DNA of 64,000 nucleotides, taken from Bacteroidota bacterium. GTDB taxonomy: Bacteria; Bacteroidota; Bacteroidia; AKYH767-A; 2013-40CM-41-45. The position numbers and the translations under genes are program-made. The first letter of the stretch is position 1. Every line of letters begins with the position of its first letter. The DNA is taken from the NCBI GenBank assembly GCA_004295015.1, contig SHNE01000055.1:62001-126000 (forward strand). Reading direction: 5' to 3'. The notes beneath the pieces are model-generated. The model was not told the DNA's origin. It did no database searches and saw nothing but the letters and a program-made list of their open reading frames with translations. Below are positions 32,960-58,889 of this stretch, in pieces.

Positions 32960-33525
32960 GCTTTTTTATCTAGGTAAATCTTCAGGTTTCGCTTCCCATT
33001 CTGAATATGGCTTTTGATCTGTAAGAGTGTAAAACCGGTTTTGGCGGAAATGTCTTTATAGCTCATTTCCTTAATATAGAACAGATCGATACAGGTTCGT
33101 TGTTCAGTATTGAGGTGAAGAATTCCTTCTTCCATTTCAAGCAGGCGTTTTTCTTTTTCTTCACCTTCGTTTGGATGCCCGTAAGGCGCGCTTTCCACAA
33201 AGGAGGTTTTGGTTTCGGCCTGGTCTAAAGGTACAGCAAAGAGTCCTTTTTTCTTGCGCAATTCCATTAAACAATGATTTCTGACCACGGTATGGAGCCA
33301 GGACTTAAAGTTATGGATGTCGTGCAGCAATAAATCTTTATGAAGCTTTTCAAAAACCTGCATAACGGCATCTTCGCTTTCCATGGGGTCACGAAGGTAT
33401 TTGAGTGCAACACCAAAAGCCTGTGGCAAGTAGCGTCGAAAAAGCTCTCCGAGACAGGCCTTGTCCCCATCCCGGAAGTTCCGGATCAGGTCAAGATCAT
33501 GTTGTCTGGACAGAGAGGCAGTCAT
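32956..33525 (-). CDS. ECF RNA polymerase sigma factor
   Basis: Start chosen at 33525 (MTASLSRQHDLDLIRNFRDG), giving 189 residues; the 48 codons before it look untranslated. Region 2 is visible (ACLGELFRRYLPQAFGVALKYLRDPMESEDAVMQVFEKL, in two parts), then NFKSWLHTVVRNHCLMELRK, and region 4 (GILHLNTEQRTCIDLFYIKE, followed by MSYKDISAKTGFTLLQIKSH). It is a small group 4 sigma factor kept inactive by the downstream membrane anti-sigma. The pair points away from giant 1, 1.2 kb off, so control of the giant adhesins is possible but unproven. Confidence 0.9.
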   Translation of the reverse strand: MTASLSRQHDLDLIRNFRDGDKACLGELFRRYLPQAFGVALKYLRDPMESEDAVMQVFEKLHKDLLLHDIHNFKSWLHTVVRNHCLMELRKKKGLFAVPLDQAETKTSFVESAPYGHPNEGEEKEKRLLEMEEGILHLNTEQRTCIDLFYIKEMSYKDISAKTGFTLLQIKSHIQNGKRNLKIYLDKKA

Positions 33526-34155
33526 TTTTGTTTTGCGATGAGGCGCAAGGTACATGGCAGGTGTTGAATGACCAAGAATAAGCTGCACCATTTTAAGTTT
33601 CTGTGTAACTGAGTACAACGATAAGTGTGCAACATTGACTTTGTTTTTCTTGACAAAAAAAATATTCATAAAAAAAGTAAAAAATAAAAAACCATTTTCT
33701 CATAGGAGAAACCATTTTTTATTTGCAATATTTTTTTACAAAGTAAAAATAATAAGAGCAATTTTTTTTTGCTTGAGCACGCCTCTTTTACGAATTGATG
33801 CGCCAGATTTTTTCAAATCTTCGGAACCCAATGGAGCTTTTCAGCCGGTGTTATTTTGGCGACAATGCCCGTTTGGATGATTCGGATCGGGCTCCCGGCG
33901 CCTACCCGAGGGCCTTTACAGGGGTTGCCGAAAAAATGTTAATAATTCTTAAGAGACAAAAAAAAACAGATTAATAAGCTATCTATATGATTGTTAGGGC
34001 CTTTTACAAAGCGCAAAAGAGTGTTCGCCAAGGAATATTGACTATTGGCCATTAATTATCAAGGAGAAGCAATTTTTTGTTTGAAATACTGGAAACGCTA
34101 CTTATCTTAGTGCAACGAAATCAAGGATTAAACCAAGATCTCATCTATCATATAT

Positions 34156-34530
34156 AAGGCTGGTGACTGCAACTATCACCAGATTTTTCAAACAAACATC
34201 AGTCGATACTATACAGTCTTTGAAGTGCCGACGCGAAGAATGGCTTGAAAAATTTAGTAGCGTGGAATACAAGCTTAAAAAGGTTAAGTAGCGTGAAAGA
34301 TTAAAAGTCGAGTGATTGTAGGTGCATAGCAGAAGTTGCTCCATCGAAAGCCACAAAACAAACCCCATTAAAGAGTAAAAAGGCCGGAGACTTTTCCCCG
34401 GATTTTTCAAACAAACAACAGTCTGATCTGATACTAAGTTAAAAAGATCGACGCGAAGAATGGCTTGAAAAATTTAGTAGCGTGGAGTGCAAAACTTAAT
34501 ACAAGTTTAGTAGCGTGAAACATTGAGTCA
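34156..34530 (+). repeat. Duplicated intergenic element, two copies 220 bases apart
   Basis: Copy 1 spans about 34156-34316 and copy 2 about 34380-34530. Both start with AAGGC(T/C)GG, form a terminator-like hairpin followed by GATTTTTCAAACAAACA, then share a 36-base identical core (34231-34266 and 34451-34486, beginning ACGCGAAGAATGGC and ending TAGTAGCGTGGA), and end with a second AGTAGCGTGAAA. In the first hairpin a T-A pair in copy 1 is a C-G pair in copy 2, so pairing is kept although bases changed. Confidence 0.75.
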
Positions 34531-34665
34531 AAATTGCCTGTGATTTAGAAGGAAGCTGCGATTAACAGAGAACACTTCGGGTCACAAAAAGAAACTGAAA
34601 CACACGTATGAATTACTCTAGTTTTTTTACCCCTGTAAATTCACACCCCCCTATGCTCTATACAT

Positions 34666-34696
34666 TGCATTGCGTTTGATACGTGATGCATTTTTT
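34666..34696 (+). promoter_or_regulatory. Terminator-like leader hairpin of giant 1
   Basis: TGCATTGCG pairs with CGTGATGCA (nine pairs, two of them G-U) around a 7-base loop and is followed by six Ts; it ends 57 bases before the giant 1 ATG. The same hairpin with different pairs lies before giant 3. Confidence 0.7.
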
Positions 34697-34753
34697 ATGC
34701 CCGGGACTCGACATATAAAACAAAAAAAACAAACACAATTTATAATCAACAAC

Positions 34754-37700
34754 ATGAAACAAAACAACTACACAAACACGCACACAACGAAATTTAATCG
34801 TTGGATGTTATTTGCCGGGATTGCTATGCTATCCTTGTTTGCAACGAACACGAACGCGCAGATCGCAGTGACGGTTACTAACCCCACTAACACGACGCCA
34901 AATCTGGCAGCGAGTTATACGGATCTGGCTACTGCTATCACAGCACTAAACGGAGTGGTTATGACAGGGCCGGTAACCCTTACGCTCAGTGGCACTGAAA
35001 CCGCACCAATAAAGGGTTATGTTTTAGGGACAACCGGTTTGAGCGGGTCTATGAATGTTACCAACACTTTGACAATTAATGGCGGCGGTACAGCCACCAT
35101 TAATGCAGGGGTGGGTACGGCCGCTTCTCCGAACAGCACGACGCCGGATGCCATGTTCAACATTTTAGGTTGTGACTATGTCACCCTGGACGGCATTGTG
35201 TTTACCGATGGCAACAGCGCCAGTGCAACAGTCGCAATGGAAAGTGGAGTTGCTTTTTATAAGTTGAGTGTAACGGATGGTTGTCGGTTTAACACGATTC
35301 AAAATTGTACCTTCAACATGCAGCGCATAAACAACGCTACAGGTTCGGGGCCCATGGTTGAGGGATCAATTGCAATCAGAACAGTAAATGCTGCTTTTGC
35401 AACACCAACAACTGCGATGACAATTACATCTGCAGGTGGAACGCATTCTTACAATAAATTTTATACCAATACGATAGACGGCGGAAACGCCGGAATTGTT
35501 CTAAGTGGATTTGCCGCGACGACCCCATTTACAGCAGGTGATACCGGAAATGATATTGGAGGAACGTCTTCTGGACAAGGAAACATAATCACCAACTTTG
35601 GCGGTGGAGCTGCTACGAACCCTGCTTCAGGTATTCGTGCGATAAACCAGTGGGGAATAAACATCTCTTACAATACCATCAATAATAATAATGGTAGTGG
35701 GGTGAATCATGCTACTACCCTTCGTGGTATTTATGCTCAGTCCGGTACAAGTGCAAGCGCTGATATTAATAACAACACTGTTACTATGCACGGTGGTGCA
35801 ACTACAAGTCAGGTTTCGGCAATTGAAAACACGATTGGTTCTACGGCCGCTTCTAACACTGTGAATATTAACAACAACACCGTACAGAACAGTGATTATA
35901 CTACAGCAACTTCTGCAACTTTCTATGCTGTGTACAATACTGCAAGTGCGGCTACGGTAAATATGAACGGGAACACGGTTACCGGAAATACTATGGGCGC
36001 TTCGGCTACGGCAACTTCGTGTACTTTCTATGGTGTTTATTCTTCAGCGACTGTGACAACTTGCGCGACAAGCTCTAATACGGTTACCAATAACTCCATC
36101 CTTAATGGTGGTGGATCGTTTTATGGAGTTCGCGCAAGTACATCTCTTTGGACCGCGAATAGTAATACAATCACCGGCAATACCATTCCAAACAATTCGG
36201 GTACCTTAAGTGCTACTCTTTATTGTTTATATAATGCTTCTTCTCCAACTTCCGAGACGATCAATAACAATACTATACACACGAACACAATTACATCTTC
36301 CTCAACTTCCACCTCGTCTAACCTTGGTGGAATTTACTTAAGTACCTCCTCATCTTCGAACAAGACGATCAGTGGAAACTTAATTCATACCCTCACTTAT
36401 ACAAACTCTTCTACGGGCTATGCTACAGTAAGGGGTATTTATCAGAGTTTGGGAGCTACCATCAATATGTACAACAATAAGGTATATGGCCTGAGTGCTG
36501 ATGGATCAAGTGCTAACGTTCATGGAATTTATACAGCATCAGGAACAACGTATAATATTTACAATAATATCATAGGAAACCTGACTAGTCCTACACAGGC
36601 TAACTCGGGAAACTTATCCGGATTATATATAAGCAGCGGCACAACCGTCAACGCCCATTACAATTCTATTTATTTGAATGCAACAAGCTCCGGCACCAAT
36701 TTTGGTTCGTCCGGAATTTATGCTTCTACGACACCGGCACTCACACTGAGAAACAACTTGGTGGTTAACTTGTCTACTCCAACAGGAACCGGCAACACGG
36801 CAGCGTATCGCAGAAGTAGCAGCACTCTTAGCAGTTATAGCGCTTCATCAAATAACAACTTGTTCTATGCAGGTACACCAGGTGCTGCTAATTTGATTTA
36901 TGTTGAAGGAACATCAACATTTACCAGCCCACAAAGTACTATTGCGGCGTATCAAAGTTTCATGAGCACAAGAGATCAGGCTTCGGTTACGGAAAACCCT
37001 ACATTTACCAGTACCACAGGTTCAAGCGCAGACTTCTTGCATTTTGCAGCAGCAACAAATACACTTGCTGAAAGCGGAGGCTCGAATGTTTCCGGTGTTA
37101 CCGATGACTTTGACGGAAATGTGCGTCAGGGAAATGGCGGTTATGCAGGTGCAGGAACCGCACCTGATATTGGTGCTGATGAGTTTGAAGGAAACAATCC
37201 TGCGCCTAGTATTACGGGTGTTTCAATTACACCAACAGGAAATCAGTGTACCGCTTCGTCACGTGCTGTATCTTGTACAGTAACTACACCAAGTGGAACT
37301 ATTACAGGTGTTGTGATTAATTATTCATTGAATGGAGTTGCACAATCTGCAATATCCATGGTGAATACAAGTGGAAACATTTGGGATGGAACAATTCCTG
37401 CGGCATCACCTGCCAATGCAGTAGTTGTATGGTCAATTGTTGCAACAAACTCAATTCCATATAGCATTACTTATACTGGAACGGGTTATCAAGATGCTCC
37501 ATTTACAGGAATCAGCGCAAGCGCAACTGCAACACCTCCTGTAATTTGTGGAGTAGGCTCTACTACATTAGCAGCTGTGTTTAATGGACCAGGCGTAGCT
37601 ACATTAGGAGCTGGCGCCCTTACCTCTTCATCCACTGCCTTCTCTCCATTCAATGGAACGTATGGCGGAGCTAAAACTCAAATCATTATGACTGCTGCCG

Positions 37701-40700
37701 AGTTGCAAGGCTTGGGTCTGGCAGCAGGAAACATCACATCAATAGGATTTGATATCACATCTGCCGGTGCTGCGCTTACAGGATTGGGTATCAGCATGGG
37801 TCACACAGCTTTGACCGAGTTTCCGACTCCTGTTTCCATTGTTGGCGGACTAACAAGTGTTTATTCAACTGCTACGTTCACCCCGGTTGCGGGAATCAAT
37901 ACATTTACATTAAATACTCCATTTAGCTGGAACGGTACATCGAATGTGATCGTTTCTATTTGCTGGAGCAATAACAATGCAAGCAACACCTCATCAACTG
38001 TTAAATATGATGTAACGTCTGATTACAAGAGTCAGAGTTACAGACAGGATAATGAGACAGATGCTAATCTTTGCGCCTTCACCGGAGCAACAGGTTTAGG
38101 AACCAACTCCTTTACTCGTTCGCTTGGAAGGGCTCAGCTCAAAATCGGAGGAACCATAACTCCATCATTGACCTATTCTTGGTCTGATGGTACAAGTACG
38201 GTTGGCTCCGGAATCAGCTTGAGTCAATCACCGACGGTGAATACAACTTATACAGTTACTGCAACAATAGCGGGTGGTTGTACAAGTGAAGCAACGGTAT
38301 TGGTAACTGTTGATGATTTAACTATACTAGGAACAAGCAATACAGACCTTACTTGTAATGCTTCCGGTGATGGAGCAATTACCGTAAACGTTACAAGCAC
38401 AGCGGGTGGACTAATGTATTCTCTGAATGGAGGTACGCCACAGGCTTCTGCAACGTTTACCGGTTTGAGCGCAGGTTCTTATACGATAGTTGTTACAAAT
38501 TCTAATGGTTGTTCGAAGTCAGCCGTCACGAGCTTGAATGAGCCGGCCGCTGTAGTAACCGTAGCCAGCAATGATGGCCCGGTCTGCGATGGAGCAACTG
38601 TTAACTTGAGCGCTACCGGTGCTTATGTGAGTTATGCATGGACCGGTCCGAATTCATATTCGGCCTCAGGTGCTGCTCAGGCTTTCAATATTGCCTTAGC
38701 TGATGCAGGTGTATATACAGTAGTTGCTACTGATGGTATCGGTTGTACCGGTTCGTCAAGCACAACTGTTGTTGTAACGGCAAACACTCCGGTTTCGGTT
38801 AGCCTTGCGGCGACGCCGAGTTTGAGCGTTTGTACCGGTGACCAGGTAACATACACGGCAACTCCAACCAATGGCGGAACAACTCCATTGTATGAGTTCT
38901 TTGTAAACAATGTTTCTACAGGAGCAGCAAGCGCATCAAACACATACGCGTTCAATCCAATTGATCAGGATGCAGTACATGTGTTTATGACATCAGACAT
39001 TACTTGTACCAGCGGAAACCCTGCAAGTTCAGATACACTTGTTGTATCTGTATCAGGAGCCGTTGCAGCCGGTGTTACCGTAACACCTTCCGCAAATAAT
39101 CTTTGTGGTACAGCGTCAGTAACATTCACTGCGGTTGCGACTGCAGGCGGTGGAGCTCCAAACTTCGATTTCTATGTGAACAGCGTTTCTGTTCAGAATG
39201 GCTTATCAAATACCTATTCTTATTCTCCTGCTAATGATGACACTATTCGTGTGGTGATGACATCCAGTTTCAATTGTGCAACAGGAAGTCCGGCTACATC
39301 TACAGATGTTATCATGGTAATTTATACGATTCCATCAGCACCTACTATCACTCCTGGTGGAGCAACAACATTCTGTGCTCCGGGTTCAGTTACATTGACC
39401 AGTTCTTATACAGGTGGAAATGTTTGGAGCACAACTGAAACAACAGATGCAATTTCTGTTTCAGCCTCAGGATCATATACGGTTACTTATACTGATGGAA
39501 ATGGTTGCTCAGCAACATCGGCAGCTGAAGTGGTGACAGTAAATGCTGCATCAGCTGTAATTAGCGGATCATTGGCACTTTGTACCGGTGGTACAAATGT
39601 GTTGACTGCTACAGCGACACCAGCAGCAACTGCTTACTTATGGTCACCGGGTTCAGAAACAACTAATACTATTAGCGTAACTGCAGGCGGATCATATTCG
39701 GTTCAAACAACTGATGCAAATGGTTGTACGGCTACAGATATGGTTACGGTTGTTGAAAATGCTAACCCTACAGCAAGTATATCCGGAAACTCCAGCTATT
39801 GCACAGGAGTTCCTGAAACATTAACAGCGACGGCCAATGCGGGATCTGGAACAATCACTTCATACCAATGGGTATTAAATGGTTCTACGAATGTTGGAAC
39901 GAATCAAAATACATATGCAGCAGCAACTGCCGGATCATATACGGTAATTGTAACAAATTCGAATGGATGCTCTGTTACGTCTGCCGCACATGTGCTTTCC
40001 GGAACCGGTGCTCTTGCAGGAACATATACTATCGACCAAAACCAAGCAGCTTCTTGTACTAATTATCTATCATTCGCTGCTGCTTTTAGCGACTTGAACA
40101 CAGTCGGAATTAGCGCAGATGTAACTTTCGAAGTTGCTGCCGGTCAAATCGACACAGCGAATCTTACCTTAGATATGTGTGCATTAGGCGCGAATGCTCC
40201 AAATGCATCACAAAAACTGGCCTTCCGTAAAACCGGAGCAGGTGCAAATCCAATCATCACTGCAGGTACCGGAGTTGGGACAGCAGATGTGATTGTTAAG
40301 ATCGTTGGAGTTGACTACCTGACTTTTGATGGAATTGATTTGAGAGCCAATGCAAATAATGTGACTTCAATTACGCAATCAGAAGTTGGTTATGCATTAT
40401 TAAAGTGTTCAGGAACGGACGGAGCACAAAATGATACTATTAAAAACTGTACTGTCACTTTAAACAAAGCAAATACAAACACAACTGTTGGTATATATGC
40501 TCCGAACTTAGACGCAAGCCTTGCTGCAGTAACCGTTACAGCGGCATCGGGCTCTCATTCAAACAACAAGTATTTCAGCAACACTGTTACAAATTCTTAT
40601 TCAGGTATAGTGCTTGGAGGAATGAATGATGTAACGCCTTATGCTTTATACGATCAGAATAACGAAATCGGAGCAGCAGGCTTAGGAAATACTGTTACTA

Positions 40701-43700
40701 ATTTTGGTGGTGGCACTGCTGCTACTTATGGTATCTATGCTGATTATCAAAATGGATTTAACCTTGTAAGCAACACTGTAAACAGTGGCGCTTCCGCAGG
40801 AACCGGACTCATTAACGGTATTCGTTTGGGTGACATGAAGAATGCTAATGCAAATGTTAACGGAAACACGGTTACTATTAACTCCAGCGCCGCTTCAACT
40901 ACACAATGTATTGCTATCAGAAGTAGCGCCGGTTCTCGTATTGGACGTCCTGAATCTGACGGAGTATTGAATACGGTAAACATCACAAATAACATTATCC
41001 AGAACTGTACATATACAGGGTCTAGTGATCTTTGGTTAATGTTCCAGGGAAGAGCTGCAACAGATACATTATCTGCACGCAGTTTAAATATCACCGGCAA
41101 CCAGTTGTTGAACAACACAAGTACTTCGACAAATGCAACCGGCACCTACTTCGGAATCATTTCTCAGAACATGGCCGATACTGTGAACATCACTGGTAAT
41201 ACAATTACCGGAAACGTGATGAATGGAGCAGTTGGTCATCAAATGAGAAGCATCGTTACCGGAGCGAACAGCTTGGGTAGCGGAACTTTGATTTATGTTA
41301 CACAGTTTAATGTGTCTAATAACGTTGTAGAGGGAAATACATCAACAGCTACAACAGGGCAAACAACAGGTATCTCTGTTGAGTTGTACACAGGAGCTGC
41401 TCCAGCTCTTGGTTCTACATCAAACGTAAATAATAACCGTGTTGGTGCTACTACTGTTGCATCTACAACAGGTGCTTATACGGGTATCAGCTCCAGTGCA
41501 TGGGGTAATACTGTTTATTCATTAAGCGGTAACAAGGTTTATAATGTAGTCCGCTCGGCAAATACTACCGGTACATTCACTGGAATTACTGCAACGAATA
41601 GCGGAATTCCGGTGAGCATGACTATTGATAATGATACAGTAAGTGGAATAACAGCACCTACGGCTACTACTTCTATATTTTATGGAGTATACACTTTGAT
41701 TTCTCCTACATCTGCTCCTTCTTCCATCAGCAACAACCTTGTAATGAATAATATCATTCACGGTACCGGAACATGGTATGGGGTTTATCAGACAGGATCT
41801 CCTGACAGCTTAACCATGACAGGAAATATTGTAAGAGACAATAGAAAATCTCAGACAGGAACTATGTATGGGGTGTTCTTCTCCAGTCCTCTCAATCTGA
41901 CATTCACAAATAACGTAGCTACGGGTAATAAAATTACAGGAGCATCTGCGACTTGTACAATGTATGGTTTCGCTGGTAGCACGTCTAAGTATTTGTTCAA
42001 TAACAATACTGCTGAAAATATTGGTGTTGACAATATGACTGGTACAAGTACCGCGACGGTTTATGGATACTATAACCTTGGATCGCCTCTTGAAGAGACA
42101 ATTACGAACAACGTTATTCGCAATCTATTCGTAAAGGGAACATCTACCGGTTCAAGTACTATTCGTGGTATGTATCACAGTACTACATCAGCTGCTGGTG
42201 CTTTCCGTACATATCGTAATAACGTAATTGATAGCCTATACACAAGTGTCGGACTTAGTGAAAACGTAGTTGGTATCTGGTCTGCAACCGGTAATGCAAT
42301 TACAATTTCTAAAAACAAAATCTTCGGTTTATATCCAGGACAAAGCACGGGTACATCTACAGCAAAGGGAATTCAGGTTTCCAGCGGAACGACCGTGTCT
42401 ATTGAAAACAACTTAGTTGGACTGGATGTTTCTGCTGCCCCTGCTGTATTAACTAACGTAGCAGGTTTGGTTGGAGTCGAGATTAGTGGCGGAACAACAC
42501 AGAATGTTCGTTACAACACTATTCGCCTTGCGGGTAATGGCAGTGGAACAACATTTGGATCTAGCGGTATTTCAATTACCTCTACTACTCCAACCGTTAC
42601 ATTAAACAATAACCTTGTATTGAATCTTGCCGGAGCCGGTGGAGGTACTGCTGCAGCGTCAGCCGTTGCTCTTCGCCGTTCTGCAGCAGCATTAACAGGT
42701 TATTCATCAGCTTCAAATAAGAATATCTGGTATGCCGGAACTCCATCAAGCTCACATTTGATTTATTTTGATGGAACGAATAGCGACCAGACTCTAGGTG
42801 CATTCAAGACTCGTGTTAGTCCTGCTGAAGCAGGGTCACAAAGCGAAAACGTTACTTTGCTCAGTACAGTAGGGGCAAGTGCTCAATACTTGCATGTTGA
42901 TGCTTCTATTGCTACTCTCGCGGAAAGTGGAGGTGTTGCTATCACCGGAATCGATACTGATTTTGATGGAGATATTCGTCAAGGTAGTGTTGGGTATCCT
43001 GGAACAGGAACATCGCCTGATGTTGGGGCCGATGAATTCAATGGAATTTCTGCTGCTCCTTATATCACAAATGTAATTGTGACACCGGGTAGCACATGTG
43101 TTGCTGCTAGTCATTCTATATCTGCTGACGTTACTACTGCAGTAGGAGTTATAGATTCAGTAAGTCTAAGCTATAGCTTCAACGGAGTTCCTCAGCCATA
43201 TATTCTGATGACTGTTCCTACTTCCGGTAATACATATACGTTTACGATTCCGGCTGCAACACCAAGTAATGCAATTGTAACCTGGTCTTTAAACGGGTGG
43301 AATTCTGCACTCTTGAATTACTTTTATTCAGGCACTTCTTATCAAGACGAATACATGGTATCTCCGCTGGTCACAGCCAGTCCTAGTACCATTTGTCTTG
43401 GCGATAGCATTACTCTTTTAGCAGGCGCCCTTCCGCCGGCCGCACCTTCTGCAGCCAGTTATTGTGCATCTACTCACGCTTCAGGATGTTCAACAGACGG
43501 GATGCTCCTTGTAGTAATGAATACATTGAACAATCCTTCTGTTTGTCCGGGTTCTCCTTATTATTCCGACTTCAGTGGATTGGGTGGTTCAGCTACTACG
43601 ACTCTTGCTTATGGTAACAACCCTCATTCAGTTGCGGTCACATTTGATACAGATGGTAACCAATATTTTGGTGCCTGGATCGATTACAACCATAATGGTG

Positions 43701-46700
43701 TTTATGAGGCATCTGAATTCCTGGGAGCCTCAGGAAATGCCGGAGCCAGCGGAACAATAGCTGTTTCTTTCAGCATCCCTTCAACAGCCTACAATGGTCT
43801 GACTCATATGCGTATTGTGGGAGGAAATGATTCTCCGGTACTAGCCACTCAGGCTTGCGGTGCATCATCTAGTGGTTTTGGCGAAACAGAAGATTATGAC
43901 GTAACCATCACGGGAGCGACAAATGTTATTGTTAGTCCAATCTTTACATCCTACAGCTGGTTTGATGGTACCAATACTTATACCGGAAACCCTGCAACAG
44001 CGATACCGACAACTGCGGGAACATATACTTATACACTTACTGCAGGTGATGGTTTGTGTTCGGTAACAGCTGTAACAGATACAGTTGAAGTTCTTCCAAT
44101 CCCTGCTGCACCTAATGCAACAGATTCCATACAGTGTGGTAATGGTGCTCCATTTGCTTATGTACAAGGAACTCCGGGGGCTACCTTAAATTGGTATGAC
44201 GCTGCTGTTGGTGGCAATCTTTTGCAGAGCAGCACAGATACAACATATACTACTTCTATTAATGCTACTACAACATTCTATGTTGCAGAACTTGGCACTA
44301 ATGGCTGCCCTGGACTTCGTGTAGCTGTTACGGAAACGGTTACTTCGCCTGATCCAATTGATGCACAGTCTACATTCGCGGCAGTATGCCCGGGAACATC
44401 AATCGACTTGAGCGTTGTTCAAACAGGAAGCACGAATACCTACAATTATACCTGGATTGCACAACCTGCAGCGGGCAGTGGAATTTCGGGTAGTCTGATT
44501 GGAAATCCGGTAAGCGCAACTCCTGTGATTCCGGGAACTTACAACTATGTTGTTACTGCAGTTGACATTCCGAATAACTGTGTTATTCAGGATTCAGTGT
44601 CTGTATTGGTTTACAATATACCGACCATTACATCTATAGACGCTAATCCGGATACAGCTTGTGCAGGAAGCCCTGTAATCCTTACGGCACTTACACCTGC
44701 ACCTGCACCGGGAACTGCTCAAATTGGAACAGGTACCTTAACAACATCAACATATCCTTACTACAGATTATATGGTTCGTCCAAGACACAGATGTTATAT
44801 CTGGCGAGCGAACTTTCTGCTGCTGGTTTGATTGCAGGTAATATTACTTCGATTGGTTTTAATGTAACTACTGCTTCAACCAATATGCCGAATGTTAAGA
44901 TCAGCTTAAAGAATACCGCATCGACTACTATTTCCGCATTTGAAACAGGCATGACTCAAGTTGCAACAGAAGCTGATTATATCCCTGTAGTGGGCGTAAG
45001 TAATCACCCTGTTACTCCATTCTATTGGAACGGAACATCAAACCTCTTGGTTGAATTCTGTTTTGAGAATAATGATGCTGGTGGATCAAGCACAAGTGTA
45101 AGCTACACGAATCCGGGATTCGCATCTGTTTTCAAGCAGTATTCAGATCTTACTCCTTCTCATTGCTCTACACCTACAGGAACAACAAGCGCTTCAAGCT
45201 CAACTCGCCCTAACCTTTATATTGGCGGGGTAGTTAACGGATTTGGAAGCGGAACATATAGCTGGTCATGGAACCCGGGTGGTGGAACCGCCAACCAGGT
45301 CACTGTTAATCCAACAACTTCAACGAATTACACAGTAACTGCTACAGATGGAACAACCATGTGTACAAACACTGCTACTGTAAATGTTGTTGTGAATGCT
45401 ACACCTCCTGCTCCAACAGCGTTTAACGGAGGCCATTGCGGTAATCAGACACCTACTGCCTACGTAACACGTTCGGTAGCGGGTACTACTTTCAACTGGT
45501 ACTTCCAGCCTACCGGAGGAACTGCAATTGCAGGGCAAAATGACAGCATACTTATCAGCTACCCACGCAATCAGGTGGACACTTTCTATGTTTCCGAAAT
45601 CTATGCAACAGGACCATGTGAAGGCCCAAGGGTGATGTTGATCGAAACAAATACAGCCGCTGACGCGATCACCGCAACTGCAACTGTTCCAAACGACACA
45701 ATTTGTCCTTTCGGTACAGTTACGTTGAGCGCAACTCAAGGAACAACGAATACTTATACTACTTATACTTGGACAACTATTCCAGCAGGTGGATCAGCTA
45801 CAGGTCAGAATACGACTGCAGTGGTTCCAAACAATGCCGGTCAGTTAATCTGGTATGTAACAGCCAGCGATGGTTCTTGTGTAACAAATGCACAGGATAC
45901 AATTTTTGTTATCGCGCCTCCAGTTATATCTAGCGTTACTCAATCTACAGATTCAATATGTCCCGGAACGAGTGTTACTTTGACAGCATTGACTGATGTA
46001 GTAAGCGGAGGCTTGGCAACCGTTGGTGTACAAACCACCACATCTATTTCCGGTAGCCCACTTCGTGGTGGAGCCGGAACTACTGTGGGTAACAAAGTTC
46101 AGTACTTATTTACAGCAGCTGAGTTAACCGCTGCCGGATTGTATGCCGGATCAATTGATAGTATTGGGTTTATTCTTACTTCAAGTTCTACGACTTACAA
46201 TAGCCCGAACTTTACAATAAGAATGGGACATACGGGAGTATCAACTCTTACTTCAACATATGAGTCGGATCCTGCAAGTATTGTATTTGGTCCAACAAAT
46301 TATGCATCTCCAACAGTTGCCGGAAATCATTATATTCCAATTACTCCATTTATTTGGAATGGGACTTCAAATATCCTGATTCAGATATGTAATGACCCGA
46401 TTAACCCAATTGGTTCTTCATTGAATGCTGCTATGGATGCTGCAGGAACAGGAAAGATGATTTATTCTAATAATGCATTATCGTGTGCTACAGTTACCGG
46501 AACATTGGCTTCGAACCGAATGGTTATGATGTTTGGCGGACAGGTTAATGCCGTTGGTGCCGGTTCTCTAAATTGGACATGGAATCCAGGTAGTTTAACA
46601 GGAAACTCTGTGGTGGTTACACCAGCTGTAACAACAACATACACTGTTACTGCCGGAGACCCTAATCCTCCATCATGTTATAATGAAGAGACAATTACGG

Positions 46701-49700
46701 TGTTCGTACACCCTGAGCCATTGGCCCCACTAAATCCGGTGAGCGATGTACAGTGTGGAAGCGGTATACCAACAATTGGTGTAACTCGTTCAGGTCCTGC
46801 CACAGATACATTCTTGTGGTATGATGCGCCAACAGGTGGTACGGCCTTGGTAGGCGAAAACGATTCGGTGCTTACATCGTTAATCGTGAGCGCTACAACC
46901 ACTTACTACATTGCTGAATACAATGGTTTCTGTGAAGGTCCACGTGTTCCTGTGACGGTGACGGTTAACTTACCGGATCTGGTTACGATCAATGCTGTCT
47001 CAGGTGTTTGTTTACCTTCAACTACATTTACATTGGATGCGATTCAAACAGGATCGACCTCTAACTATGTGTACACATGGTCAGCTAACCCAAGCGGTAC
47101 TGCAGGATTAAGTGGCACATCAGGAGCTTCTGTAAGCGCAACGCCTACTGCTCTTGGTACTTATACTTATACAGTTAGTGCTGTAGATGCGGGTGCACAG
47201 TGTGCCTTGGTTGTTGATCATATCGTAGCGGTAAATAATTATCCTACAATCACCAACGTTACTGCCAGCCCTTCTACTACTTGTGCAGGAGATTCAGTGA
47301 ATCTTTCTGCGAATAGTATTGGCGTGGGTGCAGGAACGGCACAAATCGGTGTAGCAACAACAACCACCAGTACATATCCTTATTACAGATTGTACGGTTC
47401 TTCTAAAACACAAATGTTATATAAAGCTACTGAGTTAACAGCCGCAGGTTTAGTTGCCGGTAATATCACTTCAATCGGATTTGATATCAGCACAGTGGGT
47501 ACATATATGCCTAACGTTAGAATCAGCTTGAAGAATACTGCTTCTACAGTACTTGTAGCAAGTACATTTGAGTCCGGTTTGACACAGGTAGCTAGTATTG
47601 ACACAGTGTTCCCTGTTCTGGGTGTAAATGCTCATCCGATCACTCCGTTCTATTGGAATGGAACATCGAATATACTTGTTGAGTATTGTTTCGAGAATAA
47701 TGATGGCGGTGCTACCAGCAGCACGGTTCGTTATTCAAACCCTGGTTTCTCTGCAACAGTTAAGAGATATCTTGATAATGCTCCTACTTATTGTTCAAAC
47801 CCTTCATCGGGTACATTCAGCAATTCATCAACCATTCGTCCTAACCTTTATATCGGAGGTACGGTGGCTAATGCTAATCTGAATAATACACTTAGTTGGT
47901 CATGGAATCCGGGAAGCCTTAGCGGTAGTACTGTTGCGGCTTACCCTACTGTTACGACCACCTATACGGTTACGGCTGCTGCCGGCGCTTGTACAGATGA
48001 CACAACAGTTACTGTTACGGTAATTCCATTACCTGCTACTCCAACTGCAACGAATTCTTTACAGTGCGGTTATGGAACCCCTACTTGTTCAGTTAGCGGT
48101 GGCGCAGGTCCGTTTGCATGGTATCTTAGCCCAACAGGCGGAACAGCCCTTGCGGGACAAAGCGGAACATCTTTGGTATCTTATCCAATTTCTGAGACGG
48201 ATACATTCTATGTTTCAGAATTCAATGGAACATGTTGGAGCTCACGGGCTCAGGTAATTGCCGAGGTTACTCCGGTTGATACGGTCACTGCGACCCTTAC
48301 TACAGACACTATCTGTTTAGGTTCTTCGACTACGCTTGGTATTCTTCAAGCGGGCGGAAACGGTAATACATACGCATTCACATGGACTGTTTCTCCTGAT
48401 ACTTCAATAAGTGGTATCACAGGATCAGCCTCGGGATCACCACTTGTTATCACTCCAACCGGAGCCGGTACATTTGTATACACCGTGAATTCAGTTGATG
48501 CTGCATGTGTTGCGGTGCCTTCAAGCATTAGTCTGGTAGTTGCTCCTATTCCGAGTATCACTGTTAATGCTGACCTTACTGTTTGTGACGGTGGCAGTGT
48601 ATTGTTAACTGCAAATTCTCCAAGCTTTATTCCAACGCTTCGTTGGACAGAGTTGATGGTTCAGGGATGGATAGCTTCCGGTTATAGCGGATTCACTCCT
48701 CCATACTTCGTTGTACCTACAGGAACAACTGAAGATATCTGGGAGGTAACTAACCTTGGAACTGCTCCGGTAGATCCTTCAGGAGTAACCTTCGAGCATT
48801 GGACAACTGCATCAACGGTTGCACATACAGTTACTATTCCAAGCGGAGCTGCTATGGTTCCTCCAGGAGGATCAATATTGCTTCATGCAAACTCTGTTAA
48901 TGCAATAGCTGACCTTGTAAATAACGTTTATCATTTTGGTGGCGTGAACTTTAATATTGGTTCAGGTACGGCGGGTGGTTACATCATCAAAAAGAATGGT
49001 GTTATCATAGATGCGGTTGCTGTCAACGGAATGACATTCCCTGCAGCAGCCGGACTCTCAGCCTCTGATTGGGTTGGAAGCATTCCAAGCAATAGTGGTC
49101 AGAACGGGTCTGTATTGATTAAAAATGATATAGATTCCAGCGGAGCTTGGGCTGTTACCAGTACTGCGGGTTATAAATCGTCATACGGAACCTTAAACCC
49201 GGGTGTGACAGTAACTTTACCTCCAACGGGAGTTGTTGCATGGTCTTCAATTCCATCGGGCTTCAGTGGTAATACTGCACAAGTTACGGTTGGCCCTGTT
49301 ACCGCTGCTACTCAATATATTGCTACGATGTCTAACATCTTCGGATGTGAAAGCAGCGATACTGTATTGGTGACTCCGACAACAGCAGGTGGAGTGGGTA
49401 CAATTGTATCTACGCCTGATACTATTTGTAACTCAGGTTCTGCATCTCTTACTTTAACAGGTGTTGCTTCCGGTGCTACAATTCAGTGGCAGAGCTCACC
49501 TAGTGGTTTGATTAATACCTGGACAAATGTTGGAATAGATTCAGTTGCCTACAATACGGGTACATTGACGTCGACTACATATTTCCGTGCGTACGCAACT
49601 TGTACTACAACTGACACATCTAATGTGAAAGAGGTAATGGTAGTTGTTCCGACTGTTACTGCAACGAACAACTCACGTTGTGGAATCGGACAAATTACTC

Positions 49701-52324
49701 TGACAGCTACCAGCAATGGTACAGTATCGTGGTATGCAGGTTCTTCAGGCGGATCAGCCTTGTATGTAGGTAACCCATTTGATACAACATTAATTGCGAC
49801 AACTACTTATTGGTTAGAGGCATCCATTGGTACCTGTATCAATACCGGCGGCCGTGTTCCAATTACGGCTACACTTAATCCCGCACCTCCGGTTAGCTTT
49901 AATGCAAGTTCAACTTCTGTTTGTGATGGTCAGTCAGTGACTCTCACAGCAAGTAGTCCAAATAGTGGATACACTTATTACTGGTCAACAAATGGCTCTG
50001 CTATTGTCTATACAGGTAATCCATACATCTTTACGCCTACTGCTACCAATTCATACTATTTGTTAGCTGTGGATAGTTCAGGCGGAGCAAATAACCTTTG
50101 CGGTGCCTTTGATGGTCCTGTAACAATTACCTGGAATGAGCAACCTATTGTTCCTGTTGTCAGTCCTTCTTCAACGACAGTTTGTGCTGTTGGTGATTCA
50201 GTTCTGTTGACAGTGACTAATGCTCCTACGGTTTCTTCAGGGTTTGCTTATAGCGGCACAGGAACGGTTCAGAATGCTATCACTACTACTACAGATATGC
50301 CTCCTTATGGTAATTACTATACAGGCAAACGTGACCAGATGTTGATTCTTGCTTCTGATCTTATCGCGCAAGGTGTAGCACCGGGCCCACTTACTTCTGT
50401 GGCCTTCGATGTAGTGAGCAATGGCAGTCTGTTGTCGTATAATAACTTCACCGTTAAAATAGGACATACAGCAGCTACAAGTCTCAGTACAACATTCGAA
50501 CCGGCACCTGCAGCAACTGTATGGAACCAGGCTACCTTTAATCCTGTAGCCGGCTGGAATCAGCATACTTTCTCCAGCGCGTTTGTTTGGGATGGTTCGT
50601 CTAACTTGTTAGTGGAAACATATTTCAGTAACTGTGTTGGCACAGCCACTTGCTCCGGAGTAACATGTACCGGCGTCGGTTCTGGTATAACTTATGATGA
50701 AAATGCCATCACGAACAATACAACTACCTCTTATGTGAGTCATAGTTACTTCTATTCTGATGGTTCAGGTTGCAGCCCAGAGACACAAACCATTGCTTCC
50801 ACAACGAACTCAACTCTTCCGAACATGCGTTTCGGTGCACAGGTTGGATCATCAATTCTGTACACATGGAATCCGGGCGGTCAGACAGGAGCAAGCGTGT
50901 ATGTTACACCAACTGCTTCCACCTTGTATACTGTAACAGCAAGTCTTGGAATATGCTCGGCCTCTGCTACTGTTCAGGTAGACTATACTCCGATCAATCT
51001 GGTGATCACACCATCAGGTCCTACAACATTCTGTGGATCAGGAACGGTTACTCTTGATGCAGGTGCAGGTTATGCTGCTTACTCATGGTCTGATGGTACT
51101 TCAGTTATCGGTACCACTCAAATGATCACAGTAAGTCCTACTGCTACTACAAGCTATACAGCAACGGTGGATAGTGGAGCATGTACAGTATCTGAAACGA
51201 TTGATGTAACGGTTTATCCTGCTACAGCGATCAATATTACACCTTCTACAACAATCCCAATTTGCGGTGGGGTAGGAAATGTAACGCTGACAGCAGATGC
51301 AGGATATACAAATTACTCATGGAATCCTGGATCAGAGACTACACAGGCCATCACGGTGTCTCCTGCTTCTACAACGACCTATACGGTAACTGGAGTAGAT
51401 GGCAATGGATGTACGCAGACAGGAACCTATACAGTGGTTTCTAATCCGGCACCACCGACACCGGTTATTACACCGGCAGGTCCTGTGACCTTGTGTTGGG
51501 ATGGAGTAAGTGGAACAACGTTTGTTAACCTCACGGCCGATACCACAGGTGCAGGTGCAGGTGCCAGCATAGGATGGGATGATATCTTCCTGTCTACCGA
51601 TGACTTCATCGATGTGTATGCAGCGGACTATGGACAGAGTACGTCCAATACCTTCACCATCACGGTTACCAATAGCTATGGTTGTGTATCTACAGCTTCT
51701 GTTGTAGTGAACATTGATCCATGTGCAGCAGGACTTGATCTTGATCTGACAGTGTTTATCGAAGGATACTATATCGGACCAAGCACGATGTGGAGCACAC
51801 TTTATGACTTAGGTTATAGTGTTGACCCAAGCGAGACAGACACGATTGAAGTAAATCTGTGGTCAGCGGGCAGTCTTTCAAATCCTACCCCTGATTATTC
51901 AGAGAAGGTGATTGTTCATAACGACGGAACAGCTTCAGTGAACTTCCCGACAGCTGTAGCAGGAAGCTATTACATCGCAGTAAAGCACCGTAACTCAATA
52001 GAGACATGGAGTTTGAATACTGTAGCGATGGCTTCTGGAGTAACAATCTATAACTTCAGCACAGCGTTGAGTCAGGCTTATGATGATGGCTTCAATCCGC
52101 CAATGCAGAGTATGGGTGGAGTTTATGCCATCTACAGTGGTGACGTGAACCAGGATGGAACCGTTGATGGAACCGACCTGACCGATATCGATAACGATAA
52201 CAACATCTTCGCCTTCGGTTATAACGTCACAGATTGTACCGGTGACGGAGCGACTGACTCGAATGATATCATCATCGTGGATAACAATAAGAAACTGTTC
52301 TTATTCTATGCACGACCATACTAA
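34754..52324 (+). CDS. Giant 1: about 5856-residue secreted multi-domain surface protein with dockerin-like end
   Basis: Start at 34754 (MKQNNYTNTHTTKFNRWM) because the paralogous giant 3 begins with the same MKQ(N/D)NY and because an upstream extension would run through a terminator-like hairpin. A long-n-region signal peptide ends at NTNAQ. Domain order (approximate residues): parallel beta-helix 1 (36-815, many NNNTV-type turns); Ig-like domain with a large insert (816-1185); SprB-like repeat (1190-1260); Ig-like domains (1265-1755); parallel beta-helix 2 (1755-2767); five super-units of Ig-like domains with inserts (2872-5042); a sixth insert-bearing Ig (5130-5415); three Ig-like domains (to 5655); C-terminal beta-sandwich and two EF-hand-like loops (DVNQDGTVDGTDL and DCTGDGATDSNDI). 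No T9SS type A tail is seen. Expected to be an extracellular adhesin or filament. Confidence 0.88.
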   Translation: MKQNNYTNTHTTKFNRWMLFAGIAMLSLFATNTNAQIAVTVTNPTNTTPNLAASYTDLATAITALNGVVMTGPVTLTLSGTETAPIKGYVLGTTGLSGSMNVTNTLTINGGGTATINAGVGTAASPNSTTPDAMFNILGCDYVTLDGIVFTDGNSASATVAMESGVAFYKLSVTDGCRFNTIQNCTFNMQRINNATGSGPMVEGSIAIRTVNAAFATPTTAMTITSAGGTHSYNKFYTNTIDGGNAGIVLSGFAATTPFTAGDTGNDIGGTSSGQGNIITNFGGGAATNPASGIRAINQWGINISYNTINNNNGSGVNHATTLRGIYAQSGTSASADINNNTVTMHGGATTSQVSAIENTIGSTAASNTVNINNNTVQNSDYTTATSATFYAVYNTASAATVNMNGNTVTGNTMGASATATSCTFYGVYSSATVTTCATSSNTVTNNSILNGGGSFYGVRASTSLWTANSNTITGNTIPNNSGTLSATLYCLYNASSPTSETINNNTIHTNTITSSSTSTSSNLGGIYLSTSSSSNKTISGNLIHTLTYTNSSTGYATVRGIYQSLGATINMYNNKVYGLSADGSSANVHGIYTASGTTYNIYNNIIGNLTSPTQANSGNLSGLYISSGTTVNAHYNSIYLNATSSGTNFGSSGIYASTTPALTLRNNLVVNLSTPTGTGNTAAYRRSSSTLSSYSASSNNNLFYAGTPGAANLIYVEGTSTFTSPQSTIAAYQSFMSTRDQASVTENPTFTSTTGSSADFLHFAAATNTLAESGGSNVSGVTDDFDGNVRQGNGGYAGAGTAPDIGADEFEGNNPAPSITGVSITPTGNQCTASSRAVSCTVTTPSGTITGVVINYSLNGVAQSAISMVNTSGNIWDGTIPAASPANAVVVWSIVATNSIPYSITYTGTGYQDAPFTGISASATATPPVICGVGSTTLAAVFNGPGVATLGAGALTSSSTAFSPFNGTYGGAKTQIIMTAAELQGLGLAAGNITSIGFDITSAGAALTGLGISMGHTALTEFPTPVSIVGGLTSVYSTATFTPVAGINTFTLNTPFSWNGTSNVIVSICWSNNNASNTSSTVKYDVTSDYKSQSYRQDNETDANLCAFTGATGLGTNSFTRSLGRAQLKIGGTITPSLTYSWSDGTSTVGSGISLSQSPTVNTTYTVTATIAGGCTSEATVLVTVDDLTILGTSNTDLTCNASGDGAITVNVTSTAGGLMYSLNGGTPQASATFTGLSAGSYTIVVTNSNGCSKSAVTSLNEPAAVVTVASNDGPVCDGATVNLSATGAYVSYAWTGPNSYSASGAAQAFNIALADAGVYTVVATDGIGCTGSSSTTVVVTANTPVSVSLAATPSLSVCTGDQVTYTATPTNGGTTPLYEFFVNNVSTGAASASNTYAFNPIDQDAVHVFMTSDITCTSGNPASSDTLVVSVSGAVAAGVTVTPSANNLCGTASVTFTAVATAGGGAPNFDFYVNSVSVQNGLSNTYSYSPANDDTIRVVMTSSFNCATGSPATSTDVIMVIYTIPSAPTITPGGATTFCAPGSVTLTSSYTGGNVWSTTETTDAISVSASGSYTVTYTDGNGCSATSAAEVVTVNAASAVISGSLALCTGGTNVLTATATPAATAYLWSPGSETTNTISVTAGGSYSVQTTDANGCTATDMVTVVENANPTASISGNSSYCTGVPETLTATANAGSGTITSYQWVLNGSTNVGTNQNTYAAATAGSYTVIVTNSNGCSVTSAAHVLSGTGALAGTYTIDQNQAASCTNYLSFAAAFSDLNTVGISADVTFEVAAGQIDTANLTLDMCALGANAPNASQKLAFRKTGAGANPIITAGTGVGTADVIVKIVGVDYLTFDGIDLRANANNVTSITQSEVGYALLKCSGTDGAQNDTIKNCTVTLNKANTNTTVGIYAPNLDASLAAVTVTAASGSHSNNKYFSNTVTNSYSGIVLGGMNDVTPYALYDQNNEIGAAGLGNTVTNFGGGTAATYGIYADYQNGFNLVSNTVNSGASAGTGLINGIRLGDMKNANANVNGNTVTINSSAASTTQCIAIRSSAGSRIGRPESDGVLNTVNITNNIIQNCTYTGSSDLWLMFQGRAATDTLSARSLNITGNQLLNNTSTSTNATGTYFGIISQNMADTVNITGNTITGNVMNGAVGHQMRSIVTGANSLGSGTLIYVTQFNVSNNVVEGNTSTATTGQTTGISVELYTGAAPALGSTSNVNNNRVGATTVASTTGAYTGISSSAWGNTVYSLSGNKVYNVVRSANTTGTFTGITATNSGIPVSMTIDNDTVSGITAPTATTSIFYGVYTLISPTSAPSSISNNLVMNNIIHGTGTWYGVYQTGSPDSLTMTGNIVRDNRKSQTGTMYGVFFSSPLNLTFTNNVATGNKITGASATCTMYGFAGSTSKYLFNNNTAENIGVDNMTGTSTATVYGYYNLGSPLEETITNNVIRNLFVKGTSTGSSTIRGMYHSTTSAAGAFRTYRNNVIDSLYTSVGLSENVVGIWSATGNAITISKNKIFGLYPGQSTGTSTAKGIQVSSGTTVSIENNLVGLDVSAAPAVLTNVAGLVGVEISGGTTQNVRYNTIRLAGNGSGTTFGSSGISITSTTPTVTLNNNLVLNLAGAGGGTAAASAVALRRSAAALTGYSSASNKNIWYAGTPSSSHLIYFDGTNSDQTLGAFKTRVSPAEAGSQSENVTLLSTVGASAQYLHVDASIATLAESGGVAITGIDTDFDGDIRQGSVGYPGTGTSPDVGADEFNGISAAPYITNVIVTPGSTCVAASHSISADVTTAVGVIDSVSLSYSFNGVPQPYILMTVPTSGNTYTFTIPAATPSNAIVTWSLNGWNSALLNYFYSGTSYQDEYMVSPLVTASPSTICLGDSITLLAGALPPAAPSAASYCASTHASGCSTDGMLLVVMNTLNNPSVCPGSPYYSDFSGLGGSATTTLAYGNNPHSVAVTFDTDGNQYFGAWIDYNHNGVYEASEFLGASGNAGASGTIAVSFSIPSTAYNGLTHMRIVGGNDSPVLATQACGASSSGFGETEDYDVTITGATNVIVSPIFTSYSWFDGTNTYTGNPATAIPTTAGTYTYTLTAGDGLCSVTAVTDTVEVLPIPAAPNATDSIQCGNGAPFAYVQGTPGATLNWYDAAVGGNLLQSSTDTTYTTSINATTTFYVAELGTNGCPGLRVAVTETVTSPDPIDAQSTFAAVCPGTSIDLSVVQTGSTNTYNYTWIAQPAAGSGISGSLIGNPVSATPVIPGTYNYVVTAVDIPNNCVIQDSVSVLVYNIPTITSIDANPDTACAGSPVILTALTPAPAPGTAQIGTGTLTTSTYPYYRLYGSSKTQMLYLASELSAAGLIAGNITSIGFNVTTASTNMPNVKISLKNTASTTISAFETGMTQVATEADYIPVVGVSNHPVTPFYWNGTSNLLVEFCFENNDAGGSSTSVSYTNPGFASVFKQYSDLTPSHCSTPTGTTSASSSTRPNLYIGGVVNGFGSGTYSWSWNPGGGTANQVTVNPTTSTNYTVTATDGTTMCTNTATVNVVVNATPPAPTAFNGGHCGNQTPTAYVTRSVAGTTFNWYFQPTGGTAIAGQNDSILISYPRNQVDTFYVSEIYATGPCEGPRVMLIETNTAADAITATATVPNDTICPFGTVTLSATQGTTNTYTTYTWTTIPAGGSATGQNTTAVVPNNAGQLIWYVTASDGSCVTNAQDTIFVIAPPVISSVTQSTDSICPGTSVTLTALTDVVSGGLATVGVQTTTSISGSPLRGGAGTTVGNKVQYLFTAAELTAAGLYAGSIDSIGFILTSSSTTYNSPNFTIRMGHTGVSTLTSTYESDPASIVFGPTNYASPTVAGNHYIPITPFIWNGTSNILIQICNDPINPIGSSLNAAMDAAGTGKMIYSNNALSCATVTGTLASNRMVMMFGGQVNAVGAGSLNWTWNPGSLTGNSVVVTPAVTTTYTVTAGDPNPPSCYNEETITVFVHPEPLAPLNPVSDVQCGSGIPTIGVTRSGPATDTFLWYDAPTGGTALVGENDSVLTSLIVSATTTYYIAEYNGFCEGPRVPVTVTVNLPDLVTINAVSGVCLPSTTFTLDAIQTGSTSNYVYTWSANPSGTAGLSGTSGASVSATPTALGTYTYTVSAVDAGAQCALVVDHIVAVNNYPTITNVTASPSTTCAGDSVNLSANSIGVGAGTAQIGVATTTTSTYPYYRLYGSSKTQMLYKATELTAAGLVAGNITSIGFDISTVGTYMPNVRISLKNTASTVLVASTFESGLTQVASIDTVFPVLGVNAHPITPFYWNGTSNILVEYCFENNDGGATSSTVRYSNPGFSATVKRYLDNAPTYCSNPSSGTFSNSSTIRPNLYIGGTVANANLNNTLSWSWNPGSLSGSTVAAYPTVTTTYTVTAAAGACTDDTTVTVTVIPLPATPTATNSLQCGYGTPTCSVSGGAGPFAWYLSPTGGTALAGQSGTSLVSYPISETDTFYVSEFNGTCWSSRAQVIAEVTPVDTVTATLTTDTICLGSSTTLGILQAGGNGNTYAFTWTVSPDTSISGITGSASGSPLVITPTGAGTFVYTVNSVDAACVAVPSSISLVVAPIPSITVNADLTVCDGGSVLLTANSPSFIPTLRWTELMVQGWIASGYSGFTPPYFVVPTGTTEDIWEVTNLGTAPVDPSGVTFEHWTTASTVAHTVTIPSGAAMVPPGGSILLHANSVNAIADLVNNVYHFGGVNFNIGSGTAGGYIIKKNGVIIDAVAVNGMTFPAAAGLSASDWVGSIPSNSGQNGSVLIKNDIDSSGAWAVTSTAGYKSSYGTLNPGVTVTLPPTGVVAWSSIPSGFSGNTAQVTVGPVTAATQYIATMSNIFGCESSDTVLVTPTTAGGVGTIVSTPDTICNSGSASLTLTGVASGATIQWQSSPSGLINTWTNVGIDSVAYNTGTLTSTTYFRAYATCTTTDTSNVKEVMVVVPTVTATNNSRCGIGQITLTATSNGTVSWYAGSSGGSALYVGNPFDTTLIATTTYWLEASIGTCINTGGRVPITATLNPAPPVSFNASSTSVCDGQSVTLTASSPNSGYTYYWSTNGSAIVYTGNPYIFTPTATNSYYLLAVDSSGGANNLCGAFDGPVTITWNEQPIVPVVSPSSTTVCAVGDSVLLTVTNAPTVSSGFAYSGTGTVQNAITTTTDMPPYGNYYTGKRDQMLILASDLIAQGVAPGPLTSVAFDVVSNGSLLSYNNFTVKIGHTAATSLSTTFEPAPAATVWNQATFNPVAGWNQHTFSSAFVWDGSSNLLVETYFSNCVGTATCSGVTCTGVGSGITYDENAITNNTTTSYVSHSYFYSDGSGCSPETQTIASTTNSTLPNMRFGAQVGSSILYTWNPGGQTGASVYVTPTASTLYTVTASLGICSASATVQVDYTPINLVITPSGPTTFCGSGTVTLDAGAGYAAYSWSDGTSVIGTTQMITVSPTATTSYTATVDSGACTVSETIDVTVYPATAINITPSTTIPICGGVGNVTLTADAGYTNYSWNPGSETTQAITVSPASTTTYTVTGVDGNGCTQTGTYTVVSNPAPPTPVITPAGPVTLCWDGVSGTTFVNLTADTTGAGAGASIGWDDIFLSTDDFIDVYAADYGQSTSNTFTITVTNSYGCVSTASVVVNIDPCAAGLDLDLTVFIEGYYIGPSTMWSTLYDLGYSVDPSETDTIEVNLWSAGSLSNPTPDYSEKVIVHNDGTASVNFPTAVAGSYYIAVKHRNSIETWSLNTVAMASGVTIYNFSTALSQAYDDGFNPPMQSMGGVYAIYSGDVNQDGTVDGTDLTDIDNDNNIFAFGYNVTDCTGDGATDSNDIIIVDNNKKLFLFYARPY
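43370..49880 (+). repeat. Five 1.25-1.32 kb super-units inside giant 1
   Basis: Units start near 43370, 44620, 45925, 47245 and 48550. Each begins with an Ig-like domain of the form (C-x-G-xS-V-x-L) that is interrupted by an insert; units 1-4 then have a CHU_C-associated Ig_7 domain (W-Y-x-x-x-x-G-G-T) and a further Ig-like domain, while unit 5 has an extra Ig first. Inserts: GEVED domain (about 43440-43915), a recurrent module (44705-45250, 45995-46565, 47325-47890), and a lamin-tail-like domain (48620-49240). Confidence 0.75.
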
Positions 52325-57772: not shown

Positions 57773-57813
57773 TCGTGCCGGAGTAAGGGTACAATACAAT
57801 AGCATACAATGAA

Positions 57814-57849
57814 AAGAAGTCCTTCCTTAAACGGGAGGACTTCTTTTTT
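57814..57849 (+). terminator. Intrinsic terminator of giant 2
   Basis: AAGAAGTCC pairs with GGACTTCTT (extendable with one G-U pair), followed by a T-run; 42 bases after the giant 2 stop codon. Confidence 0.85.
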
Positions 57850-58124: not shown

Positions 58125-58889
58125 ACGAGGCAATAATTGAATAAGCCTTGACTTAGGCAACTAGAAAAAATTTATAGGCGAACCCTTGTTATTGATTCTC
58201 CTAATTAGGTTCAATGGATTTACCTATGCTCCTGCAGCCTTGAGCATGATCCCTTAATCATTTTAATGAATAGACGAATCAGGAACAGCCGGAGCCCCTT
58301 GCATGGCAAATCCTGTCAATTATTTGAAAAGTCCAATTAATTATCGTATATTAAGCCAATAGAGGCGAAAATTCTATAGCTTGTACTATAACAAGACTCA
58401 AATAACAGTCAGAAATTTTTCGATAAAAATTGAAGTTATATTCATACTTGGATTATTTTTTGAATAAATTCCGACAAAATTGTTAATAAGCTCCGGCCTT
58501 CTTTATAATTTTCTAAATTAAAGCAAAAAGCCGCTTATTTTACTTATTTCACATTATTATAAAAGACATTCACCAAGGATTTATAGCCTTCGGCCATTAA
58601 TATTTAAAATAATTGGACTTTTCCTTTGAGTCGCAATGTGATTTTACTACTTTAGTATTGAAATTATGGAAAGGTTGACCATAAATAGTACAGGATTTAA
58701 CTAATACCGACTGCGTGTTATTAGAAAATCCAAGATTGTTTTAAGTGATTTTTTTGTGCTGCATTCGCAGAGATTCTTGAAATCATCCAAAGAGTAAGCC
58801 CATAAGTTAATCTAAAAGACTAGAAAGCCCTAAATGATCAAATTTTACGCACCCACTTATTGTAGTGTCATAAACTTCCCTGAAATCGG

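Follow-up and report, generated by a model that had tools for sequence, protein, structure and literature searches.

Why should a structure that resembles a transcription terminator lie just ahead of the start codon of a giant gene when the upstream neighbour is transcribed away from it? The question is raised by giant 1, a gene in the 64,000-nucleotide stretch of DNA analysed here (the window), which belongs to a 3.86-Mb Bacteroidia genome (G000). Few bacterial proteins are larger than the giant repeat proteins that leave the cell by the type IX pathway, and we found no publication on how their synthesis is gated; a premature stop site ahead of an 18-kb gene would make an efficient checkpoint. 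The reading that we favour, and consider fairly likely, is that the hairpin acts as an attenuator, being an intrinsic terminator of transcription that the giant genes carry within their 5′ leader. The analysis also yields exact predicted RNA ends, a candidate RNA element without an Rfam match and a candidate operator common to many secreted-protein genes of the family.

The hairpins before giant 1 and giant 3

An initial annotation of the window had described a 9-bp stem followed by six Ts, 57 nt before the giant 1 ATG, and this is confirmed at the coordinates in Table 1. A tenth pair, T-A, is available inside the 9 bp, and the isolated hairpin has a folding energy of −12.3 kcal/mol (z=−3.9), with none of 200 shuffled sequences equally stable. 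A stable stem-loop followed at once by a T-rich tract is the arrangement of an intrinsic terminator. The upstream regions of giant 1 and giant 3 become homologous at the hairpin, all nine pairs of which are kept before giant 3, and the three pair changes that had been taken as covariation are present, although only that from C-G to T-A is two-sided; the other two convert a G.U into a Watson–Crick pair by a change on one side only, and the covariation between these two paralogues alone is therefore modest.

Table 1. Positions of the giant genes and of the elements in their leaders within the window
Feature	Position	Strand	Description and basis
Giant 1 direct repeat, putative activator site	34024..34054	+	TTCGCCAAG ... 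TTGGCCATT, period 21 nt; TTCRCC-N15-TTSRCC pattern
Giant 1 predicted sigma-A promoter	34080..34110	+	TTTG (34080-34083), 19 nt, TATCTTAG (34103-34110); spacing
Giant 1 predicted leader RNA	34115..34696	+	~580 nt, ends at terminator-like hairpin; from promoter and hairpin
Giant 1 extra terminator-like hairpin	34160..34188	+	CTGGTGA...TCACCAG (hairpin 34160-34182) and ATTTTTC; −7.9 kcal/mol; giant 1 only
Giant 1 tandem duplication in leader	34176..34524	+	Period 219-222 nt; repeat families D1, D2, D5
Giant 1 terminator-like hairpin	34666-34690 + T6 34691-34696	+	9-10 bp; arms TGCATTGCG (34666-34674) and CGTGATGCA (34682-34690), loop TTTGATA; sequence, folding, scanner
Giant 1 gene	34754..52324	+	5856 aa, N-terminal signal peptide
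Giant 2 terminator-like hairpin	57812-57847		−21.8 kcal/mol
Giant 3 direct repeat	58569..58599	+	TTCACCAAG ... TCGGCCATT, period 21 nt; pattern
Giant 3 predicted promoter	58625..58655	+	TTTG, 19 nt, TACTTTAG (58648-58655); sequence, spacing
Giant 3 terminator-like hairpin + T6	58890-58921	+	Arms TGCATTGTG (58890-58898) and CACAATGCA (58907-58915), 8-nt loop TTCATTAT, T6 58916-58921; sequence, folding, scanner
Giant 3 gene (only the start inside the window)	58973..64000	+	Extends past the window end

We note an ATG at 34697, right behind the T-tract, that is in frame with giant 1 and would extend it by 19 residues; it is probably unused, since the matching frame of giant 3 is closed by a TAA. 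Most leaders also have TATAAA somewhere between T-tract and ATG (34691-34753 in giant 1, 58916-58972 in giant 3); this stretch does not match TAnnTTTG and may be a second promoter or the A-rich region where translation starts.

The argument that no plus-strand gene needs a terminator here holds for giant 1, whose neighbour is divergent, but not for giant 3, upstream of which lies the co-directional giant 2. In the relatives, too, the upstream gene is co-directional, at a distance of 560-890 nt, as would suit a terminator that shields the giant gene against transcription coming from upstream and plays no role in the gene's own leader. However, the divergence at giant 1 and the strong terminator-like hairpin that giant 2 has of its own speak against such insulation, the conserved position of the hairpin is relative to the start codon and not to the upstream gene, and the gene's own transcript must pass the hairpin because a predicted promoter lies upstream of it in every leader; we regard insulation as very unlikely. 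The genes divergent from giant 1 encode a sigma-70-like factor with regions 2 and 4 (32956-33669, minus strand) and a 354-residue protein without a Pfam match (31895-32959, minus strand), whereas the co-directional neighbour in the relatives encodes a protein of about 550 residues, with a weak Wzi-like match in one of them.

Conservation and chance level of the hairpin

The N-terminal signal-peptide region was traced in 11 genomes of the same family and in the order, giving nine leaders: those of giant 1, giant 3 and of genes in genomes G001, G005, G006 (two genes), G009, G010 and G036. The hairpin with its T-tract is present in seven of these (six genomes), always before long signal peptides of the same type. 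It had been tied to peptides that start with MKQ(N/D)NY and it does recur in the relatives, but the peptides there are related rather than identical (MENN.., MKNDNYP..). The T-tract starts 56-78 nt before the ATG in six leaders and about 93 nt before it in G005; the G001 hairpin (−11.9 kcal/mol) has one A between stem and T-tract, and the hairpins of G010 and of the second gene in G006 are imperfect and lack a good T-tract. Stem pairs were tabulated from the arms, a MAFFT alignment of the isolated hairpins having misplaced the loops, and all 59 stem cells hold standard pairs despite the differing stem sequences, with two-sided changes at stem positions 5, 6, 8 and 9 and a nearly invariant outer TGCA/TGCA. 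These counts support the selection on hairpin structure proposed in the initial annotation, and pairing is not poor in the further homologues as far as the sequence tells. Although G036 is from a different family of the order, its leader matches the G006 leader at 84 % identity; this may reflect transfer or a misbinned contig, and G036 was therefore not treated as independent.

Distant homologues in other families that share the mature domain have no hairpin, or only the terminators of upstream genes. The hairpin was for this reason rejected as a feature of the mature-protein family, and it belongs to a module of leader and signal peptide in the window's family and not to the protein domain. 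The conserved string TTTTTTATGYCCGGG was also rejected as a wider motif, its matches in other genomes being scattered and unrelated.

The conserved TGCA...TGCA ends would also be expected of a DNA palindrome that is the operator of a regulator, but the length of the loop differs widely between leaders, the giant 1 stem contains G.U pairs and the T-tract lies on the gene side only; we hold an operator to be extremely unlikely. Hairpins in leaders can stabilise mRNAs, and a stem-loop that protects or processes the message or affects its translation, the T-run being incidental, has to be weighed as well. We give it a very low probability, as the T-tract stands directly behind the stem in all seven hairpin leaders (in G001 after the single A) and the hairpin is distant from the predicted 5′ end.

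The scanner used to set the chance level required one hairpin of at least six pairs with a T-rich tract directly behind it. No terminator-like hairpin at −11 kcal/mol or below arose in 800 dinucleotide shuffles of eight giant leaders. In a sample of about 350 kb from the window's genome, a comparable hairpin is found in one of 49 other divergently flanked leaders and in five of 58 co-directional ones, the latter being unsurprising because terminators of the upstream genes are expected there. For the 3′-end terminators in this sample the quartiles are −20.3, −17.6 and −12.0 kcal/mol, and hairpin plus T-tract in the seven leaders (−11.5 to −17.7 kcal/mol) fall within their range. By these quartiles the two hairpins of the window (−11.5 and −13.0) fall among the weaker of the normal terminators and those of the relatives (−16 to −18) are typical terminators; the giant 1 stem is weaker than the relatives' stems, and the stems contain A+T.

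The predicted promoter region and leader RNA

The pattern TTCRCC-N15-TTSRCC(A) is present in all nine leaders, with one deviation each in G001 and giant 3. Its layout of two direct repeats of about 9 bp, about 12 bp apart and with a period of about 21, is that of LytTR operators as defined previously (PMC6193735). In the 11 genomes of the family the pattern has 87 matches, against 30 for a reversed control, and the repeat (TTCRCC-N15-TTSRCCAA) is present in every one of them, mostly before secreted-protein genes, which makes it a candidate LytTR-type regulon of exported proteins. At 36 sites, the best TAnnTTTG-like box follows the second repeat at distances that cluster at 36-38, 47-49, 58-60 and 69 nt, and these clusters hold 23 of the 30 strong boxes; the period is one helical turn, as expected of an activator site. 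Giant 1 and giant 3 fall in the 58-60 nt class, with the −7 box 58 nt after the second repeat in both, and their start sites are accordingly predicted near 34115 and 58660. In Flavobacterium psychrophilum the −7 box spans −12 to −5 (PMC9723704). The initial annotation had named a transcription start downstream of the hairpin as the observation that would count against it; to judge from the sequence, the promoter architecture lies upstream, and the conserved elements there support the entry of transcription into the hairpin. A terminator between an upstream promoter, here a predicted one, and the start codon is the arrangement of an attenuator leader.

The hairpin does not characterise the direct-repeat regulon as a whole: most genes with the repeat have short leaders without a terminator. 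At one other locus of the window's genome, L162 (G000:C6:29500-43500, minus strand), a direct-repeat site stands before an open frame of >1200 codons, with a hairpin and T-tract 66 nt before the start (−12.9 kcal/mol) and alternative pairings GATTCC/GGAATC and GATTCC/GGAATT. We also note that G000 has four genes with LytTR domains, one of which (G000:C10:60668-60940, minus strand) lies 1 kb outside the window start and about 36 kb from giant 1 and may encode the regulator that acts on the direct repeats.

From the predicted 5′ end to the hairpin there are 230-270 nt in G006, G036, G009, G005 and giant 3, about 400 nt in G001 and about 580 nt in giant 1; the distance from −7 box to hairpin is nearly constant in the first five (214-238 nt). 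The median 5′ UTR of F. psychrophilum is 24 nt (PMC9723704) and 13.5 % of the 5′ UTRs of Bacteroides thetaiotaomicron exceed 100 nt (PMC7366714), so the predicted giant leaders would be far longer than is typical of the phylum. The duplication in the giant 1 leader contains four copies of a TAGCGTGRAA-type motif.

A second element, the sequence CATCAAC in a hairpin loop, lies about 100-111 nt before the terminator in G001, G005, G006, G036 and G009, on stems that are unrelated in sequence and weak in G005. RNAalifold, given an alignment of five leaders (A7), recovers both this hairpin and the terminator unprompted. The first helix of the CAUCAAC hairpin has two-sided changes in five of its six pairs, and its covariation score is reached by none of 500 column shuffles and destroyed by sliding the partner; as the comparison covers five related sequences, it is suggestive but falls short of proof. 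We could not recognise this hairpin in the giant 1 leader, and the giant 3 leader has only a weak counterpart. In most leaders TGCGTGAA or a variant of it occurs 45-61 nt before the terminator, and a search of the order (42 genomes) for the pattern CATCAAC-N-TGCGTGAA brought up no additional leader. Searches with Rfam gave no match in the window and, at eight leader loci, only Thr_leader, below the cut-off and outside the leaders.

The near-constant length of about 230-260 nt between promoter and hairpin in five leaders would also suit a stable, trans-acting sRNA derived from the 5′ UTR, with the hairpin as its 3′ end and the giant mRNA as rare read-through from the same promoter, and Bacteroides is known to have 5′-UTR-derived sRNAs with intrinsic terminators (PMC7366714). 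Between genera, however, the leader outside the two hairpins is poorly conserved, unlike a trans-acting sRNA, and the giant 1 leader is over twice as long; we consider such an sRNA unlikely. The hairpin may be an attenuator and also form the 3′ end of a separate leader RNA, the two roles being compatible.

Proposed attenuation and known systems

When the full predicted leaders are folded, the pairs of the terminator stem have probabilities mostly >0.9. Since the stem thus stays formed, the default state of the leader would be to stop transcription, and some factor or condition would have to permit read-through. Leaders truncated before the 3′ arm fold with differing partners and gave no conserved antiterminator pairing; a protein-dependent attenuator needs no such mutually exclusive pairing. 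Among candidate factors, no NusG paralogue of the UpxY/LoaP type was found in 11 genomes of the family, each of which has one NusG-domain gene; the CAT_RBD domain (the BglG/LicT-type RNA-binding domain) is absent from G000, the positive control being detected in four genomes; and ANTAR proteins gave no match, the control genomes being silent too.

A ribosome could take the place of such a factor if, by entering the hairpin on a short ORF, it blocked formation of the terminator, and attenuation of this kind has been suggested for amino-acid operons of Flavobacterium (PMC9723704). Short ORFs with an ATG do overlap the hairpin in six of the seven leaders (23 codons in giant 1, 36 in giant 3), but there is none in G001, the peptides of different genera have neither sequence nor amino-acid bias in common, the conserved ATGCA of the stem partly accounts for the ATG, and between the ORFs of G006 and G036 amino-acid-changing differences outnumber silent ones. 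As the overlapping ORFs show no shared peptide, ribosome-controlled attenuation is possible but unsupported, and we think it distinctly unlikely.

From the hairpin, the T-tract, the conserved pairing and the promoter-like elements in their order, all read directly from the DNA, we infer termination, conditional read-through, an antitermination factor and a purpose for attenuation at the giant genes, as follows. Transcription would start at a sigma-A-type promoter, probably switched by a regulator bound to the repeat of 21-nt period. RNA polymerase would make a leader of about 230-580 nt and, 56-100 nt ahead of the start codon, reach the hairpin and its U-tract; some or all complexes would stop at the T-tract and free a short leader RNA, and the remainder would go on into a gene of 5-18 kb. 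Whatever sets the read-through would, in the relatives, probably make contact with the upstream hairpin, whose CAUCAAC loop is invariant, and with the UGCGUGAA element, which lies 45-60 nt before the terminator. The cell can probably abort transcription early in this way and spare itself a very costly protein, and the terminator would add a second check on the synthesis of secreted surface proteins of very high cost.

Antitermination of the UpxY type acts near the start of the long surface-structure operons for Bacteroides capsules. These systems belong to the same phylum as the giant genes, but the window's genome and its relatives have no NusG paralogue. The structured 5′ leaders of F. psychrophilum (PMC9723704) also come from this phylum, lack an Rfam match, in some cases show signs of attenuation and have TAnnTTTG promoters; they precede amino-acid, tRNA-synthetase and metabolic genes, however, and none of those named precedes giant secreted proteins. 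The direct repeat resembles LytTR operators (PMC6193735) in having two short repeats, spaced by a period of roughly two turns of the helix, ahead of a promoter, and differs from them in its sequence (TTCRCCAA) and in its distance to the −7 box, which is 58-60 nt at the giants and in other helical phases elsewhere.

The closest parallel appears to be the leaders of the dfn and mln operons of Bacillus velezensis, in which a small hairpin and then an intrinsic terminator precede a giant, costly operon under the control of LoaP (PMC12691694). Both concern long, costly units with these two elements in the 5′ leader, but LoaP is a NusG paralogue that acts with a UNCG tetraloop hairpin (PMC12691694), whereas the leaders described here have a CAUCAAC loop and their genomes no NusG paralogue. 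Since paralogue and UNCG loop are both missing, the giant leaders are not members of the LoaP class, and the dfn leader is their best published analogue in layout. We suggest, tentatively, a new family of leader RNAs in one Bacteroidota family, in which the CAUCAAC hairpin, UGCGUGAA and the terminator, with an antitermination factor other than a NusG paralogue, might gate the giant genes. The type of control is already established, and what is new is the layout of the regulatory RNA.
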